DNA of 64,000 bases from contig DYLS01000008.1 of NCBI GenBank assembly GCA_020721965.1, positions 1 through 64,000 on the forward strand. The letters are read 5' to 3'. Source of the stretch: Blastopirellula marina (lineage in GTDB: Bacteria; Planctomycetota; Planctomycetia; Pirellulales; Thermoguttaceae). The translations under genes were made by a program, and so were the position numbers. Below, in pieces: positions 2-17,743 of this stretch (position 1 is its first letter; every line of letters begins with the position of its first letter). The notes beneath the pieces were generated by a model. The model saw only the letters and a list, made by a program, of their open reading frames with translations, did no database searches and was not told the origin of the DNA.

Positions 2-259
2 TTTGCCGAGCGCTGGCGTCCCCGCTTGCCCCAGGGGGTAGAGCTGATTGCCGCCACCGTGAACGGCTACGAGGCATTCTCTGGCTGGGACCTGGCGCGG
101 GGCGGGCCGAAACCGACTCGATTCGCAGTGCCGGCAGGCAGTGTGTACTTTTTAGAATCTCACAATGGGCAACTGTTCAACGGTTCGCTGGCCGAGTCCG
201 ATGAAGATCGTCGGCTGGGTTACGGCTGCGTTTTGCAAGGAGTCTGGAACTATGCCTAG
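2..259 (+). CDS. cmr3: Type III-B RAMP protein Cmr3, C-terminal fragment (truncated by window edge)
   Basis: Frame open from base 2; ends GYEAFSGWDLARGGPKPTRFAVPAGSVYFLE...LGYGCVLQGVWNYA, typical Cmr3 C-terminus; stop overlaps cmr4 start (ATGCCTAG). Confidence 0.8.
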   Translation, partial: FAERWRPRLPQGVELIAATVNGYEAFSGWDLARGGPKPTRFAVPAGSVYFLESHNGQLFNGSLAESDEDRRLGYGCVLQGVWNYA

Positions 260-1232
260 TCTTTCACACAATGGTCGCAGCACGGCTGTACTGTTTCTGC
301 ACGCACAGACGACCCTGCATCCTGGAACGGGGACGGCCCTGGGCGTGGTCGATCTTCCGGTCCAGCGTGAGCGGCACACCCAGTGGCCCACCATTGCCGG
401 ATCGGCCTTGAAAGGCATTCTCCGCGATGTCTGCCGGGAGAAGGCAAAGGCGGATCGTCCTCCCGAGGTCTCCCTCTCTCCGCGCCGCTGGGCCAACGAG
501 CAGCATCACAAGCTGGTCACGGCGTTCGGCCCCGGCCTCCCGAAGGAAAGCTCGGAACATGCGGGTGCAGTCGCGGTGACCGATGCCCGCATTCTGGCCT
601 TTCCCGTGCGTTCGCTGCGTGGGGTGTTCGCGTGGGCAACCTGCCCGGCGGTCCTCGAAAGGCTCCAGCGCGATTTGACCATGGCGGGGCTGATCGACCC
701 CGGCAAGCTCCCCGTCCCAACGGTTGCGGACAATCAGATTGCCTGTGCGGCCGACTCGCCTCTGCTGGTAGGCCCCCGCCGCGACCAGGCCGTGCTGGAA
801 GAGTTCGAGTTCACGAAAATCCAGGCGGATTGCGGTCCCCTGGCCGATTGGATCGCGGGGCACGCCGTGGCCGATGAGGGTACCCGGCAGCGGCTCCGCT
901 CGCACCTGGCCGTCCTTTCGGACAACGATTTCTCTTACTTCGTCCGCCATGCGACCGAAGTGGCTGCCCGCATCGCTCTGGACTACGAGCACAAGACGGT
1001 CAAGGAAGGGGCACTCTTCTACCAGGAATTTCTCCCCGCCGAGACCATCTTCTACACATTGGTGCTGGCCAGCGCAAGCCGCAAGCCGAACGCGAACGAT
1101 TCGGCCGCCGAGATCTTGCAATACGTCCAGCGGTGCGTCGAAGAAACCGGCGTCATGCAAATTGGTGGCGACGAAACGACTGGCAAAGGGTTTTGCACCG
1201 CCCGTTGGCTCCCACAAAGGCAGGAGGGATGA
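252..1232 (+). CDS. cmr4: Type III-B RAMP protein Cmr4 (backbone, Cas7 group)
   Basis: LFLHAQTTLHPGTGTALGVVDLPVQRERHTQWPTIAGSALKGILRD and C-terminal QIGGDETTGKGFC are Cmr4 signatures; start ATG at 252. Confidence 0.93.
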   Translation: MPSLSHNGRSTAVLFLHAQTTLHPGTGTALGVVDLPVQRERHTQWPTIAGSALKGILRDVCREKAKADRPPEVSLSPRRWANEQHHKLVTAFGPGLPKESSEHAGAVAVTDARILAFPVRSLRGVFAWATCPAVLERLQRDLTMAGLIDPGKLPVPTVADNQIACAADSPLLVGPRRDQAVLEEFEFTKIQADCGPLADWIAGHAVADEGTRQRLRSHLAVLSDNDFSYFVRHATEVAARIALDYEHKTVKEGALFYQEFLPAETIFYTLVLASASRKPNANDSAAEILQYVQRCVEETGVMQIGGDETTGKGFCTARWLPQRQEG

Positions 1233-1235
1233 CCG

Positions 1236-1637
1236 ATGACTCAAACTGCTGCACAGGGAAAGGCGACCATCGATCAGCAGCGTGCCAAGCACGCTTGGAA
1301 CGCCGCGCAACAGCTCAGGCTTGGTTCGGACGAGGCCGATGATTATGCTCGCGAGGCCAAGAAATTGCCCGTCCGCATGATCACCTCCGGGCTCGGTCAC
1401 GCCCTGGCTTTTCTCAACGCGAAAAAAGCCAAAAAAAGAGGGTTAGAGGGGCTGATCAAGGACCTGGACGATTGGGCCAGCCGGCGACTGAGAGTCCAGC
1501 AAAGTCTTCTCGAGGCCATCATGCAAGGTGACAGCGATTTCCTTCGCCGGGCCACCGACGAAATGTTGGCGTACCTCGCGTGGCTGAATCGCTTCACTGA
1601 GGGCAGAGGGCTGCCGAAGAAAGGGGAGCAAGACTGA
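1236..1637 (+). CDS. cmr5: Type III-B small subunit Cmr5 (Cas11 group)
   Basis: 133 aa helical protein between Cmr4 and Cmr6; DQQRAKHAWNAAQQL...KKLPVRMITSGLGHALAFLNAKK matches Cmr5. Confidence 0.9.
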   Translation: MTQTAAQGKATIDQQRAKHAWNAAQQLRLGSDEADDYAREAKKLPVRMITSGLGHALAFLNAKKAKKRGLEGLIKDLDDWASRRLRVQQSLLEAIMQGDSDFLRRATDEMLAYLAWLNRFTEGRGLPKKGEQD

Positions 1638-4021
1638 TGGCAACCAGTTCCATTCCGCTGCCGAAAAACGTCGTTGCCGTGATCGAAGAGGTACACCTGA
1701 GCGAGCGGCACCCGGGACTTCAGCTCGACAAATACCTGACCCCGGCGGGGACCCAAGAGCTTCAAAAAGAGGCCCTCAAATCGGTACTTGAGACGGCGTG
1801 CGATCGGGCCTGGCTCCAGTCCGCTCGCCAGCGAAGGGAACAAATGCTCCAGCGGCTCGGCGCTGTCCAGTTCCGCGCCACGACGGCTGGGCCTCTGACA
1901 CTCCATTTGGCGCGTGCCTCGGTCCTGGAAAATGCCGGTATCTGCCTGCACGCGATCTACGGGTTCGTGTACTTCCCGGGGACGGGCCTCAAAGGCATGG
2001 CCCGCGCCTATGCCGAAACCGTCTGGTTGCCCATGCAACCCAACCAAACCCAGGCGCGGCGGCAGATCGAAGATGTCTTCGGCTGGGCCGTAAACCCTGA
2101 ACGCCAGCGGCAAGTGCGTGATCAGCAGCATCCCGCCGCACCGCGCCGCGAGGATGAAGAGGATTCCCGATCGGCCGAGATTCGCGCCGCGGCGGGCAAC
2201 ATCGTCTTTCACGACGCCTGGCCGGTGGATTGGCCTAAGCTCCGGCTTGATATCGTCAACAATCACCACACAGAGTACTACCGCGATGAGCGGGTCCCGC
2301 CGGGGGACTGGGAAGACCCGGAGATGGTGTACTTTCTGGCCATTGGGCCGGGCGAAACGTTCGACTTCGCCCTCTCCAAACGCCGCTCGGATACACCCGA
2401 CCCATTGCTCCAACTGGCCAGGCAGTGGCTGATTGGCGCGCTGACCCGCGAGGGCCTGGGGGCCAAGACCGCGGCTGGCTACGGGGCCTTTGTGGTGGAT
2501 TTCCAAGCGGCGATCCCTACCCCGCAGCCGCCCGTCCGCGCGGTCTTCGAGACCACGCTGGAGCTGGTCACCCCCGCCTTTCTGGCCGGACCGCATCAAC
2601 AAAAAGAGGATTGCGACCTACGCCCCGCGACGCTCCGCGGGCTTTTGCGGTGGTGGTGGCGGACGATGCACGCGGGCTACGTCGATGTGCCTACCTTGCA
2701 CAGGCTCGAGGCCGCCGTCTGGGGCGATACGAATACCGGCGGCCCAGTACGGATTACCGTGAGCCGTCGAGACCCCGTGCCCGTCGAGCGATTCGAGTAC
2801 AAGCGGGATAGCGGGGGAGGAAAAAGCCAACTCCAGCCCGACCGCAAGGCCCTCATCGACCTTGGAATCATTCCTCTTACCCAGGGCTTCACGACACAAT
2901 GGCTTTTTTACGCCGCGTATGGAATGGACGAAATCAGCCACGGCCAGCGCCGGAGTCGATACTGGGTGCGTCCACCCGCCGAATGGACCGTCCGCATGGT
3001 TGCCGGACCAGGCAAGTTTACGTCTAATGGCCATGCTGCGGTAAGTCTTCCCACGCAGGCGATTCTCCAGCAGGCCCAGGCGGCGCTGTGGCTTCTTTGC
3101 CAGTACGGGGGCGTTGGTTCACGTTGCCGTAAGGGCTTCGGCTCACTGAAGGATGTGAACATCGATGGGATCAGCTCGCTAGAGGATGTGGAGCGTGTGG
3201 CCACGCAATTCCGTTCCCAATGCGAACTTGTCAAATCCGACAGAGGAAAACTCGATGTGCGGTCACCAAGTCTGGCCGCGTGCATCGTCGGGACTGAATT
3301 TCCGCTGCCTTGGAAAAATCCGTACCGCGCCCTGGACGAGGTCGCGCAGGCCTACGAAGCCGCTGCACTCGCTCCACCCAACACCGGCCACGGCAAACAC
3401 TGCGAGGCCAAATTGGGTTTAGGATTGCCTCGGCAGATCCACGGCCCGCGCCCTCGGCCTTTGGCACACCAGCGGGATCACAAGCCCCCTGTGCGTCTGA
3501 AAGCTCGGGGCCCAGATGGCAAGTACCTGGAGCGGCATGCATCGCCGCTCTTCTTCCATTTCGCGACGCGGCAGGACGGAACGCTGTCGCTTCGCGTCAT
3601 CGGATTCCCCTCGGCGGTGCTGGGCGGACTGGCAACCAACCGGCAGTTCCTGGAAAAGAAATTTCTCCCCTATTTTGAGAGCACGCTCAAGCAGCGTGCG
3701 GAGAAGGGACCTCGCGACACCCAGCCGCGGCCGGGTTCGCTCCCCAGCCGTCCCAGCCCGGAGTGTGCCTCCAGTGCTCTACCGAAAGCCAACGACCGTG
3801 TCCCGGCCGTTTTGCTGGAGGAAAAGACCAAGAAAGGGGGCTGGAAAGCGAGACTCGCCCAAGGGAATGCCACGCCGGGGGCGATCTCCAACACCGCCGA
3901 CGTTCCCGCCAGCGCCGCGCCTGGGCAGGAGGTCACGCTGATCATCCATTCCATCAACGCCGCTCCTGACGGCTCGATCCGGGCTATCCAGTTCCGCTGG
4001 CCCACGGATAAGCAAGGCTGA
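1637..4021 (+). CDS. Cmr6-Cmr1 fusion protein (794 aa) with additional C-terminal domain
   Basis: N-half: GTGLKGMARAYAE, NIVFHDAWP, YFLAIGPGETFDFAL, GLGAKTAAGYGAF (Cmr6). From ~2543: FETTLELVTPAFLAG..CDLRPATLRGLLRWWWRTMHAG (Cmr1). One uninterrupted ORF, start overlaps cmr5 stop (TGATG). Confidence 0.88.
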   Translation: MATSSIPLPKNVVAVIEEVHLSERHPGLQLDKYLTPAGTQELQKEALKSVLETACDRAWLQSARQRREQMLQRLGAVQFRATTAGPLTLHLARASVLENAGICLHAIYGFVYFPGTGLKGMARAYAETVWLPMQPNQTQARRQIEDVFGWAVNPERQRQVRDQQHPAAPRREDEEDSRSAEIRAAAGNIVFHDAWPVDWPKLRLDIVNNHHTEYYRDERVPPGDWEDPEMVYFLAIGPGETFDFALSKRRSDTPDPLLQLARQWLIGALTREGLGAKTAAGYGAFVVDFQAAIPTPQPPVRAVFETTLELVTPAFLAGPHQQKEDCDLRPATLRGLLRWWWRTMHAGYVDVPTLHRLEAAVWGDTNTGGPVRITVSRRDPVPVERFEYKRDSGGGKSQLQPDRKALIDLGIIPLTQGFTTQWLFYAAYGMDEISHGQRRSRYWVRPPAEWTVRMVAGPGKFTSNGHAAVSLPTQAILQQAQAALWLLCQYGGVGSRCRKGFGSLKDVNIDGISSLEDVERVATQFRSQCELVKSDRGKLDVRSPSLAACIVGTEFPLPWKNPYRALDEVAQAYEAAALAPPNTGHGKHCEAKLGLGLPRQIHGPRPRPLAHQRDHKPPVRLKARGPDGKYLERHASPLFFHFATRQDGTLSLRVIGFPSAVLGGLATNRQFLEKKFLPYFESTLKQRAEKGPRDTQPRPGSLPSRPSPECASSALPKANDRVPAVLLEEKTKKGGWKARLAQGNATPGAISNTADVPASAAPGQEVTLIIHSINAAPDGSIRAIQFRWPTDKQG

Positions 4022-4060
4022 TCGGGCGACTGCGGATGTACCCTTGCTCCGACCTGATCT

Positions 4061-5029
4061 TCAGGCCAGCAGCGTCACTTGCCAGCAGCCGGCCCCGGCC
4101 ACGCGGTGTTCGCCAATCCCCAGGCGGCCACCCCAGACCATCCACGGTATCAAGCAGAGTGGCACCAGCCGAAGACCGCTCCCCCGGTCACGCCCACCAG
4201 GTCGTAGCTCTGATGGCGTCGGTTGCTGCGGTATCGCTGGTGGAAGGGTTGCCAGAAGGCCACATGGGTGGGGATGGTTTCGGCGAGCGCCTTCAGGGCC
4301 GCGAAATCGACCTGCTCGTCCCAACCGCCACCGAATGCGGCAAACGCTCGCCCCACGGTTCTCAAACTCCCGCGCAGCAGTTGCCCGAATGTAGGCCCTC
4401 GCCTTGTCGCTCTCGGCACGCGTTTCTTTCAAAAAAAGCGGAGTCGTAAGATCCACTCGCACGGCGGGGACGCGCCCCGGGCAGCTCCGCGGGGATGGGG
4501 GCAGGTCCCAAGGCTCGACCTCCTGCCTTGCCCCCGGGGCATCCGCATCGGTCCCATGCGGGGAAAGCCGAAATGCAATCCGATCCGAGCCTAGCGCCAG
4601 CGGGCACTGGGGGGCGGCGAGAATCTCAGCAATGGCCTCGGACGCTGCCGCAGCCTGTTGTCCCAGGAACGTCCAGCACAAAATCAAGCGGTCGCCGGGA
4701 TGAGCGTATTGCGGCGCGGAAAAGGGGGGGCGGATGGTGATCGCGCGCTGGCCGTCGCTCAGCCCGTAGGGGCCGGATTCCTTCGCTCCCAATTCCGTCT
4801 CGAAGGCGCTGCCGTAGGGGCAGTTCGCTGCGTGTGGGTAGCCGCGGCAGGTCTGGTACTGGCTATCGCGTTGGGCAGGCGGCCAGCGGCAGACGGCCTC
4901 CTTCACCGCCCACGCCAGCGTCCCACAGATGGCCGGTCCCAGCCAGGTAAGAAGCCGCCCTCGCTGGTCCGTTTCATATTCCACAAGCGGGTTGCCACCA
5001 CCAAGGCCATGTCCAACCCACTCCCCCAT
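4061..5029 (-). pseudogene. cas6: Cas6-family CRISPR endoribonuclease with two compensating frameshifts
   Basis: Frame A gives the N-terminal part with TTPLFLK and the C-terminal LGIGEHRVAGAGCWQV; the middle (FGQLLRGSLRTVGRAFAAFGGGWDEQVDF...DLVGVTGGAVFGW) is only in ORF 4150..4419. Confidence 0.75.
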
Positions 5030-5419
5030 TCAGGCCAAACGCGTCAAAACGCCCAGCTCCCACGGCACTTCCACCATCTGCCCGGCATCGAGTACCGCCC
5101 CCTCGGGCAACCGCTCTCCGAGTCGCACCACCACCGCCCGGTCGCGCGGCTGCATTTCCACTCGCACACGACGGACAGGCACCTCCATCCCCAAGAGCTT
5201 GCCGAGCAACTCTGCCGTGGCCCGATGCCCCACCGCCGAGATAAAACCATGCCCGAGCAGCTCGACGGCCTCATCCACGGAAATGGGGCCTTCGAATCTC
5301 CAGTCGCCGTAGTCCGTGAGGATGGGTGCATTGAGGAGATAGACCTTGCCATCCGTGCCGCTGCCATCCGCAATGGCCCGCGACTTCTTTTCGTCCGGTT
5401 TGGGATATTGGTTTTTCAT
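5030..5419 (-). CDS. crn2: DUF1874 family protein, Crn2/AcrIII-1-type cyclic tetra-adenylate ring nuclease
   Basis: YLLNAPILTDYGDWRFEGPISVDEAVELLGHGFISAVGHRATAELLGKLLGMEVPVRRVRVEMQPRDRAVVVRLGERLPEGAVLDAGQM matches DUF1874 including the GH(R/E)xTA region; ATG at 5419 preferred over TTG at 5443. Confidence 0.88.
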   Translation of the reverse strand: MKNQYPKPDEKKSRAIADGSGTDGKVYLLNAPILTDYGDWRFEGPISVDEAVELLGHGFISAVGHRATAELLGKLLGMEVPVRRVRVEMQPRDRAVVVRLGERLPEGAVLDAGQMVEVPWELGVLTRLA

Positions 5420-5498
5420 GCGAGAAGGAAGAACTCGCCACAAACCAATCCGGCGCTAGCCGGACCTTTTATTCCGTGGACCAGGCCTTGAATAAAAT

Positions 5499-6665
5499 CT
5501 AGTGGCGAGATTGGAACCATTTGGGATCGTCTAACCACTCGATCAAGCCTGCTACGGCGGCCTTCCGCTCGCCCGCCGTGCGAGCGGTCGTCTCCACCCT
5601 GAACTTCACGCAGTAGCTTCCATCCGAGAAGATCCCTTCAATCCCCTCGGAGCTGAGGCGGAAACGCTTCTTTTGGGACAGGTCAGGATTGAAGTAGTAT
5701 GTCTTGCACTGGACCACGAACGGCGCCTCGTCCGTGACACGCTGCAGAAAACGCCCGACCTCTGGATGTTCTCCCGGCCAGCCCGCCTTTTCGCAGTGAG
5801 GAGGCCGCTTCGATGGTGCGGGTGCGCGTGGCGGCACAATGGAGTCCGCCTGACTCTGAAAACGGTCCTTGAACGTCTCATAAAAAATCTGGCCGACTGG
5901 CGTCAGAGCCAGATACTTCTTCCCATCGATGGTCTCCTGCTCCACAAGACTGTCGTAGCGATCGTCCCATTCCTCCGCGTACGTCTCCGCCAGGACAAAG
6001 CCTTGAGGGTTCGAGGCCAGGTCGCGAAGGATTCCGCTGGCTTGCATCCATAATTCGAAATTCAATGCCACTGGCAACGGCGGAAAGGCGATCACCTCGT
6101 CGAACAGCTCATGCTTATAATAGACGGTCACCCCCAGGGCTTGACCCAGGACCACGGCGACGGCGATCTGGGCCTTGTACCCGCCCGTCGCGTTGATGGC
6201 ACAGGCCTGCGGCGAGCGTTCTCGCACCACCTTGGCCATTTCCCGAACGAGGTTCCTCAGACCTTGATTCCGGAACCTCTTGGGGTCCTTATCCTGGAGA
6301 TCGGCGACCTCCACCAGCTCCACCGGGTTGTGGCCACGCGCGGAATAATAGGCCTTCACAATCGAGGCGATGCGCCGTCCTTCCTCCGTCTGCGAGTGGA
6401 GGAAAAACAACCCGGTTTCCGGCTCCACATATCCCTTCTCGATCATGCCGGCGATGGAGTTGATCTCCGCCCCGCACAATCGTTCCGAAGGGTTCAAGCG
6501 GCCCAACAGCTTGGCGATTTGGAGACCATTGCCCGACCGGTAGGCCTCGGCAAGTTCGCGTAGCTCCCCCGAGAGAGAACCACTTTGGAGTTCCGCCGTG
6601 AGTCTCTCCAGATTTGGACGGAAAAGGCTTGTGCCCACGGTGCAGATCAGAATCTGATGGCCCAT
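5499..6665 (-). CDS. CARF-domain CRISPR ancillary protein (APE2256/TIGR02619-like) with wHTH and C-terminal putative effector domain
   Basis: MGHQILICTVGTSLFRPN N-terminus, INATGGYKAQIAVAVVLGQALG (CARF motif), FELWMQASGI; adjacent to cas6/crn2. Start moved to ATG 6665. Confidence 0.85.
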   Translation of the reverse strand: MGHQILICTVGTSLFRPNLERLTAELQSGSLSGELRELAEAYRSGNGLQIAKLLGRLNPSERLCGAEINSIAGMIEKGYVEPETGLFFLHSQTEEGRRIASIVKAYYSARGHNPVELVEVADLQDKDPKRFRNQGLRNLVREMAKVVRERSPQACAINATGGYKAQIAVAVVLGQALGVTVYYKHELFDEVIAFPPLPVALNFELWMQASGILRDLASNPQGFVLAETYAEEWDDRYDSLVEQETIDGKKYLALTPVGQIFYETFKDRFQSQADSIVPPRAPAPSKRPPHCEKAGWPGEHPEVGRFLQRVTDEAPFVVQCKTYYFNPDLSQKKRFRLSSEGIEGIFSDGSYCVKFRVETTARTAGERKAAVAGLIEWLDDPKWFQSRH

Positions 6666-6901
6666 CTCGACTCCCCTTGGCACGATGCTCGCGATGCCTT
6701 TCGGATACGTTACCGGCCGCCGTGGTCCTGCCGCCGTGAACCGACTGCCATCTTTTTTATCAAGCCCGAGGCCCGCTTTCAATGCCCTTGCTCATGGCGC
6801 GCCTTCTGGACATGTTGCTCACGGACCGCTGAAGTCTGAAAGATCCGCTCCGCTGACGCCACCACCAGCTTACGCTGGTGGCTCGGGATTACTGTTTCCA
6901 A

Positions 6902-7013
6902 TTCCACCACCAGCTTACGCTGGTGGGTCGTGTTCGCGATTCGGGTGCGACCCCGGCAGTAGCGCTGAAAGACGCGCCAGCGCACGAGCCTCGGGCGTCA
7001 GCCCGAGGTGGAA
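6902..7013. repeat. REPIN-like composite palindromic element (hairpin A + hairpin B), long-linker copy
   Basis: TTCCACC-ACCAGC TTAC GCTGGTGG ... CCTCGGGC GTCA GCCCGAGGTGGAA; single hairpin-A copies flank at 6862-6881 and 7063-7082. Confidence 0.85.
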
Positions 7014-7200
7014 ACAGCGTCAACGTGACCTGATTTCCGAAATCGCCGCTCCGCTAACGCCACCACCAGCTTACGCTGGTGGCTCGTGGTTTCGACGGCA
7101 GGTTTTCGAAGGCGTCATAACGAGCCTCGGCATTCGCCCCAGGTTCCCCAGACGATCGACTGGTCGGGCCATGCGTGCGAAGCCTCAAACCTTGCTGCAC

Positions 7201-12310: not shown

Positions 12311-12382
12311 CCACCTCGGGCTTACGCCCGAGGCTCGTATCCCGCTGCAGACGCCCCACGAGCCACCAGCGTAAGCTGGTGG
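12311..12382. repeat. REPIN-like composite element, inverted orientation
   Basis: CCACCTCGGGCTTACGCCCGAGGCTC ... GAGCCACCAGCGTAAGCTGGTGG. Confidence 0.85.
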
Positions 12383-12410
12383 TAAAGCCTTTCCTTGGGA
12401 GCATAATCGA

Positions 12411-17136: not shown

Positions 17137-17390
17137 GCGATACTCCAACCGAAATGACCAAACGAGCCAAACCCCAAGCGATGCCCCCCAATCACGCGCC
17201 GCATCACATGCCGAAAGCAGGTTCGCGGAGATGGAGCGGGCTTTACCGTACAGCGTTCCGCGGGCCAACATCTGGCAAGGCACGGATGTCTCGTGAGCCG
17301 CGGCGTCGATGATCTGTGAGCCACGACGTCAAGCTTCCCATTTTACCGGCCGGGGCGACCGTCGGGCAGGACCTCGCAGCGAGGCATCTT

Positions 17391-17466
17391 CACCACCAGC
17401 TTACGCTGGTGGCTCCTAGCGCGACTCCAGCGCAATACGAGCCTCGGGCGTAAGCCCGAGGTGGAG
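17391..17466. repeat. REPIN-like composite element; extra single hairpin A at 17549-17568
   Basis: CACCACCAGCTTACGCTGGTGGCTCCTAGCGCGACTCCAGCGCAATACGAGCCTCGGGCGTAAGCCCGAGGTGGA. Confidence 0.85.
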
Positions 17467-17743
17467 GCATCACCAAAACGCACGGATCGCACAAAACGCA
17501 CGCACCGAACACGCGCACCGCTTCGCAGCATCACCACCGCCAGTTCCACCACCAGCTTACGCTGGTGGCTCACCGATGCACGCTTTTTCCAGTGCCAATT
17601 GCACGACCAGCTTACAGGGAGGGATCGGGATTTACGATCAGCGCATGGTACCGCATGGTACAGATCCGCGCCTGCCCCCCATGCATTGCAAGCCCAGGCC
17701 GGTAAAATGAATAGACTTGCTCGGCCGATGCAAGGGGGGATTC

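Follow-up and report, generated by a model that had tools for sequence, protein, structure and literature searches.

A fused Cmr6-Cmr1 protein with an S1/OB-like tail in type III-B CRISPR loci, and a candidate exchangeable half of Cmr1

A single 794-aa open-reading frame in the 64,000-nucleotide stretch of Blastopirellula marina DNA analysed here (contig DYLS01000008.1; hereafter the window) joins Cmr6 and Cmr1 of a type III-B CRISPR system in one polypeptide and closes with a third domain, predicted to be S1/OB-like. The explanation that accounts best for these data, and which we consider likely, is that the protein forms a covalently tethered, tail-bearing head, placed at the 3′ end of the crRNA in a III-B complex that is normal in other respects. 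A preliminary description made from the sequence alone had reported one frame carrying Cmr6 and then Cmr1, at positions 1637-4021 with a junction near 2540, and both the module order and these positions are borne out (TIGR01898, TIGR01894, PDB phmmer and Foldseek matches); its list of modules was incomplete, as the domain at residues 714-790 had been overlooked. The gene is divided as follows.

1637-4021, plus strand: cmr6-cmr1-tail fusion gene, 794 aa (open-reading frame, Pfam/NCBIfam profiles, AlphaFold2 and Foldseek)
1694-2506, plus strand: Cmr6 module, residues about 20-290 (TIGR01898 and PDB Cmr6 matches)
2492-2557, plus strand: linker, residues 286-307
2552-2761, plus strand: Cmr1 proximal segment, residues 306-375, LRPATLRGLLRWWWR ... 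WGDTNTGGPVRIT, which appears to co-evolve with Cmr6 (r 0.82 against Cmr6 identity)
2762-3706, plus strand: Cmr1 distal segment, residues 376-690, apparently swapped relative to locus L003
3776-4006, plus strand: tail, residues 714-790, predicted five-stranded S1/OB-like barrel with an EEKTKKGGWKA motif

The frame is intact and its ATG overlaps the cmr5 stop codon. Profile searches place Cmr6 in the first half, at residues 84-285 (NCBIfam TIGR01898, E 4.7e-32, 111.7 bits, curated cut-off 51.1), and Cmr1 in the second, at residues 308-505 (NCBIfam TIGR01894, E 1.9e-12, 47.7 bits, curated cut-off 28.65), and two stretches of the protein match Pfam RAMPs (E 1e-29). In phmmer searches against the PDB the first part recovered Cmr6 of A. 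fulgidus and P. furiosus, and the second part Cmr1. An AlphaFold2 model built with 32 homologues (pLDDT 82, pTM 0.79) gave A. fulgidus Cmr1 (9l7c_A, E 7.9e-11; 4l6u) and Cmr6 (9l7c_I, E 3.1e-9) as its top Foldseek matches in the PDB, and the Cmr1 C-terminal domain is present in the modelled Cmr1 part. These searches confirm the protein as Cmr6 followed by Cmr1 (residues 308-505 plus the C-terminal domain), after which comes the predicted S1/OB-like tail.

Full-length fused homologues, 30-48% identical to the window protein, occur in independent assemblies, including the complete genome CP062796.1 and the chromosome-level OY282352, OY282457 and OY282432, and another is encoded by G167, a genome from the same genus as the window that is assembled in one contig. 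As the fusion recurs in homologues and both of its halves can be assigned, the preliminary reading of a real Cmr6-Cmr1 polypeptide in a III-B operon stands. There is next to no chance that two adjacent genes were merged here through a stop or frameshift missed in assembly or sequencing: the window's assembly is MAG-like (380 contigs), and intragenic frameshifts are present in some homologous MAG loci (L031 and L032), but 32 full-length open frames were found across independent assemblies, complete genomes among them, with Cmr6 and Cmr1 motifs conserved on both sides of the junction. A junction artefact was rejected on these full-length homologues.

In a GTDB scan of one genome per species, 39 of 51 loci carried the fusion, either whole or interrupted by contig ends or frameshifts. 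Going by MAG titles as given, the fused loci belong to Planctomycetota (with additional loci within the window's class), Acidobacteria, Latescibacteria, Binatia, Nitrospinota, Omnitrophota, Rhodothermales, Alphaproteobacteria, Lentisphaerae, Sericytochromatia, Hydrogenedentes and Bacillota. The fused form is nevertheless a minority among Cmr6 proteins: four of the 21 Planctomycetota genomes with an above-cut-off Cmr6 carry it (G000, which is the window's own, G167, G274 and G061; 392 genomes searched), and in the phylum of L005, an Acidobacteria MAG, three of 24 Cmr6 genomes (297 searched) have an open frame of >700 aa, which we read as fused. No copy was found among plasmids, phages or IMG/VR viral contigs, the plasmid matches being confined to Cmr6. 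The open-access papers searched contained no description of a Cmr6-Cmr1 fusion; the fusion is apparently undescribed, and absence from that literature is no proof of novelty. The 499-position PADLOC Cmr6 profile spans the junction weakly (E 1.1e-5), so such a protein may already be contained in the profile sets of classifiers.

The fusion gene lies among the remaining genes of a III-B system, which in this genome are distributed over the window and contig C87.

74-247, plus strand: C-terminal end of cmr3, a gene split by the contig end (TIGR01888 positions 284-346, E 1.1e-7)
Contig C87 of the window's genome, 15-137, minus strand: N-terminal end of cmr3 (TIGR01888 positions 2-44, E 1.9e-9)
252-1232, plus strand: cmr4, Cas7 backbone, catalytic motif VVDLPVQR kept (TIGR02580, E 1.2e-74)
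1236-1637, plus strand: cmr5, small subunit (PF09701, E 1.1e-23)
4061-5029, minus strand: cas6-like gene, whose homologue at about L003:12502-13473, minus strand, matches PF10040 CRISPR_Cas6 just below cut-off (E 3.2e-4)
5030-5443, minus strand: STIV B116-like/Csx16 protein, likely ring nuclease (PF08960, E 4.3e-23; PADLOC Csx16, E 4.9e-40)
5499-6782, minus strand: CARF7-DUF2103 protein, likely cyclic-oligoadenylate sensor or effector (PADLOC CARF7--CARF_DUF2103, E 6.9e-124; PF09651, E 2.4e-36)

The listed cmr4 frame opens at 165, the likelier start being the ATG at 252. The 3949-base contig C87 encodes an intact cmr2, in which an LHDPP motif and GGDD are both present, and Cmr2 and both ends of Cmr3 were found on C87 and C140, besides the Cmr4, Cmr5, Cmr6 and Cmr1 of the window. 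Because cmr2 sits on a separate contig and cmr3 is broken at a contig end, we infer the contiguity of the operon in this genome from relatives, which show the whole order cmr2-cmr3-cmr4-cmr5-[cmr6-cmr1-tail]. With LIYAGGDDVLA in Cmr2 and LGVVDLPVQR in Cmr4, the locus appears signalling-competent by all motifs checked. Across fused loci GGDD is kept in every complete Cmr2 frame except one, and as both the Cas10 GGDD and the Cmr4 catalytic motif are retained in most of them, they look like complete III-B systems. The genes downstream of the fusion fit crRNA processing (cas6-like), ring-nuclease switch-off (STIV B116-like/Csx16) and an effect triggered by cyclic oligoadenylate (CARF7-DUF2103). 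No match was obtained for the window copy of the cas6-like gene, the middle of which is apparently out of frame relative to the intact L003 homologue. CRISPR arrays adjoin many of the fused relatives; a simple scan of the window found none. Dispersed palindromic repeats (CCACCACCAGCTTACGCTGGTGG and CCTCGGGCNTAAGCCCGAGG) occur at 6859-7095, 12311-12387 and 17388-17581 of the window and are not a CRISPR array.

In T. thermophilus a Cmr1-Cmr6 heterodimer caps the complex at the 3′ end of the crRNA, where it has been proposed to hold the 3′ seed in position (PMC8376896). With the place and role of both subunits taken from the literature, one chain would here make up the entire 3′-end cap, or head, of a type III-B Cmr effector that is complete in its other parts. 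Along the crRNA, Cmr6 would come after the final Cmr4, and Cmr1 would be next, at the 3′ end, with the linker tethering the two such that every Cmr6-containing complex would also hold Cmr1 beside the 3′ seed region. Attached by a flexible linker, the S1/OB-like domain would probably give the head an extra RNA contact at this end. Target binding would then lead to cleavage by Cmr4 and to Cas10 signalling to the CARF effector, with the ring nuclease as off-switch. The canonical III-B Cmr6 and Cmr1 of P. furiosus, T. thermophilus and A. fulgidus (9l7c) are these two Cas7-type subunits too, accompanied by the same genes in the operon and with the same expected place at the crRNA 3′ end; the window protein differs from them in being one polypeptide with a C-terminal S1/OB-like domain, and in that cmr1 follows cmr6 rather than opening the operon.

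The fixed 1:1 stoichiometry of Cmr6 and Cmr1 put forward in the preliminary description is plausible in view of the linkers, none of which, in 32 loci, pairs a start codon with a Shine-Dalgarno-like sequence. That a separate Cmr1 is additionally made by internal initiation or proteolysis, giving a near-canonical complex, we regard as unlikely. Internal translation of small subunits is known from other CRISPR operons, and ATG or GTG codons occur in some of the linkers, which range from 12 to 74 aa among homologues (median 24.5); however, such a codon lacks a Shine-Dalgarno-like sequence in all 32, and none is conserved among them.

The tail is predicted as a five-stranded barrel (pLDDT 90) whose Foldseek neighbours are NusA, eIF2alpha, exosome and other S1-type domains, all of them weak (best E 5.8e-3). 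Pfam returned scattered weak S1/CSD/TRAM matches and no clear family, and a search of the tail sequence against the PDB found no relative. Homologues of the tail end the separate Cmr6 proteins of L040, L042, L043, L046, L090, L095 and L106, and also the III-D TIGR03986 double-RAMP proteins; in L047, L048, L049, L050, L051 and L052 this III-D C-terminus, homologous to the III-B Cmr6 tail, is covered by no Pfam family. Among 392 Planctomycetota genomes the tail occurs in eight, and all assignable matches lie in Cmr6, fusion or TIGR03986-type proteins. This confinement marks it as a module of type III systems, carried by proteins that presumably sit at the crRNA 3′ end, a position which for TIGR03986 is itself deduced. 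Judging from its predicted fold and its place, the tail probably contacts RNA at the 3′ end of the complex, either the 3′ overhang of the crRNA or the target RNA's flank.

The likeness to the III-D proteins extends to two RAMP domains per chain and a tail 37-45% identical to that of the window protein (L047, L050 and L052), yet the RAMP domains and the system are others, and the TIGR03986 proteins are related to Cas7-11, which the window protein is not. A different Cmr6, encoded at L104:140-1564, bears a cold-shock domain (PF00313, E 1.7e-9), and PDB 9arw_H is named ‘CSD domain-containing protein Cmr6’. Here too an OB-type nucleic-acid-binding domain is attached to Cmr6, but it is N-terminal and of another family, which indicates that OB-type domains have been joined to Cmr6 more than once.

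The preliminary description had further proposed that the fusion may be an intermediate on the path to single-chain effectors such as Cas7-11/gRAMP, a step that we judge highly improbable. Cas7-11 and III-D double-Cas7 chains are lower-scoring structural neighbours of the model, and the same tail is carried by III-D TIGR03986 proteins. However, the fusion protein has two RAMP domains and no match at E ≤ 0.1 to the NCBIfam models NF041225 and NF049957 (Cas7-11e and Cas7-11i), which the III-D TIGR03986 proteins do match; the fused loci keep the full III-B gene set, Cas10, Cmr4 and Cmr5 included; and III-E and III-I originate from different III-D variants (PMC12669027). Together these three lines leave a step towards Cas7-11 unsupported. 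No close relative was seen with further fused subunits or with loss of Cas10 or Cmr4. Cas7-11e (III-E) and Cas7-11i (III-I) also fuse neighbouring Cas7-type subunits in a chain, but theirs comprises the whole backbone, three or four Cas7 units, and Cas11, with Cas10 absent or degenerate, whereas here two head subunits only are joined and Cas10 signalling is kept. At most, the fusion is a partial example, arisen independently, of the tendency of Cas7-type subunits to become fused that Cas7-11 also shows.

Comparison of close relatives revealed a pattern in the distal half of Cmr1 that is a more surprising lead than the fusion itself. In L023 and L099, residues 1-397 of the fusion share 95% identity and the remainder 35%; upstream the DNA is 89% identical, and from 82 bases past the stop it returns to 84% identity. 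Identity also drops between the window and L003 at window residue 375 (68% before, 36% after) and between L002 and L006 at the equivalent position (75% before, 51% after); each of these three steps exceeds 2000 permutations, and all fall within the GGxVRxTV motif. A step is also present in L002/L029, slightly later, and the contrast recurs in L003/L116 (71 and 85% ahead of the step, 40 and 38% beyond it); in L006/L029 and L010/L012 there is none. The stretch that appears replaced runs from about codon 375-400 to 55-82 bases beyond the stop, with similar DNA flanking it (L023:6012-7472 against L099; window 2762-4076 against L003). Across 48 proteins, in which pairs are non-independent and five are second copies of the same locus, identity correlates with that of Cmr6 at r 0.82 for Cmr1 residues 304-376, 0.50 for the next segment and 0.26 for the tail; in the 32-sequence set the same three correlations are 0.82, 0.30 and 0.23. 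The two halves give conflicting trees for window+L003 (p-AU 8e-4), for L002+L006+L029 (0.019) and, less clearly, for L023+L099 (0.09), these groups having been named after the pairwise data were seen.

A mere rate effect as the source of the distal divergence was rejected for pairs that step from 95% to 35% with similar DNA downstream, and recombination is the natural reading of such divergence between close relatives. The pattern is visible in the fusion clade, and likewise in one unfused pair, L094 and L096 (L094:14965-16320, minus strand, against L096:1837-2892), where Cmr1 is 94% identical over its first 50 aa and <40% identical over the remainder, as if Cmr1 had been swapped past its first ~50 residues. 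The L094 Cmr1 ends in an MntA-like nucleotidyltransferase and is nearly the chain in PDB 9z7q (E 9.8e-162). Such Cmr1-MntA proteins (PDB 9z7q, 9z7v and 9z7x) resemble the window protein in having an extra C-terminal domain on the Cmr1 of a III-B complex; they differ in that the cargo is a nucleotidyltransferase and Cmr6 is a separate chain. On balance we lean towards a view in which the distal half of Cmr1, from WGDTxxGGxVRxTV, which is conserved, to the stop, forms with its C-terminal cargo (S1-like tail or MntA nucleotidyltransferase) an exchangeable module, passed between related III-B loci by recombination at a recurrent breakpoint whilst Cmr6, the start of Cmr1 and the flanks stay in place.

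How the three-part order arose may be answered in two ways, between which we see an even chance: either cmr1 was inserted between Cmr6 and its pre-existing tail, or Cmr6 and Cmr1 were joined end to end and the tail came later. Insertion is favoured by the tail being the Cmr6 C-terminus in 7 of 21 separate loci and never standing on a separate Cmr1. Later addition is favoured by the lack of a tail in the nearest separate Cmr6 group and in L101, by the apparent exchange of tails between loci, and by separate cmr1 genes that overlap or directly follow cmr6, beginning at or inside its end (L100:8058-10717 and L101:8107-10244). If tails are readily swapped, however, both sets of observations would also fit the opposite option, and given that exchange, insertion of cmr1 before the tail is retained as only one of the two. 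L100 and L101, where cmr1 is a separate gene after cmr6, were rejected as direct precursors: the L101 Cmr1 scores only 28 bits with a profile of fused Cmr1 and has no tail, so a replaced head is as likely there as a precursor.

In quick trees, built without bootstrap, Cmr2 unites 34 of the 36 fused loci in a single group (SH-aLRT 100), and a single fused clade is compatible with Cmr4 (p-AU 0.365) and Cmr6 (p-AU 0.305). Strict monophyly of the fused loci is rejected for Cmr2 (p-AU 1.35e-69) owing to L045, whose Cmr2 falls among separate systems and whose Cmr4 and Cmr6 fall among fused ones, a conflict which points to a probable replacement of cmr2 in this locus. The partner of L035 is the unfused L101. 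One main origin of the fusion with later reshuffling is the simplest reading of these trees, though no proof.

These results add a widespread, apparently undescribed one-chain head to type III-B complexes, and name an S1/OB-like tail as common to III-B and III-D head proteins. They also correct the notion that Cas7-Cas7 fusions always lead towards Cas7-11. The fusion is a natural tethered construct for asking what role Cmr1 plays at the 3′ seed, and naturally occurring pairs of nearly identical loci offer a test of the proposed exchange. If the exchange is true, the head could alter its surface or cargo, for example under anti-CRISPR pressure, with its joint to Cmr6 undisturbed, and the crRNA 3′ end would be a surface under diversifying pressure.
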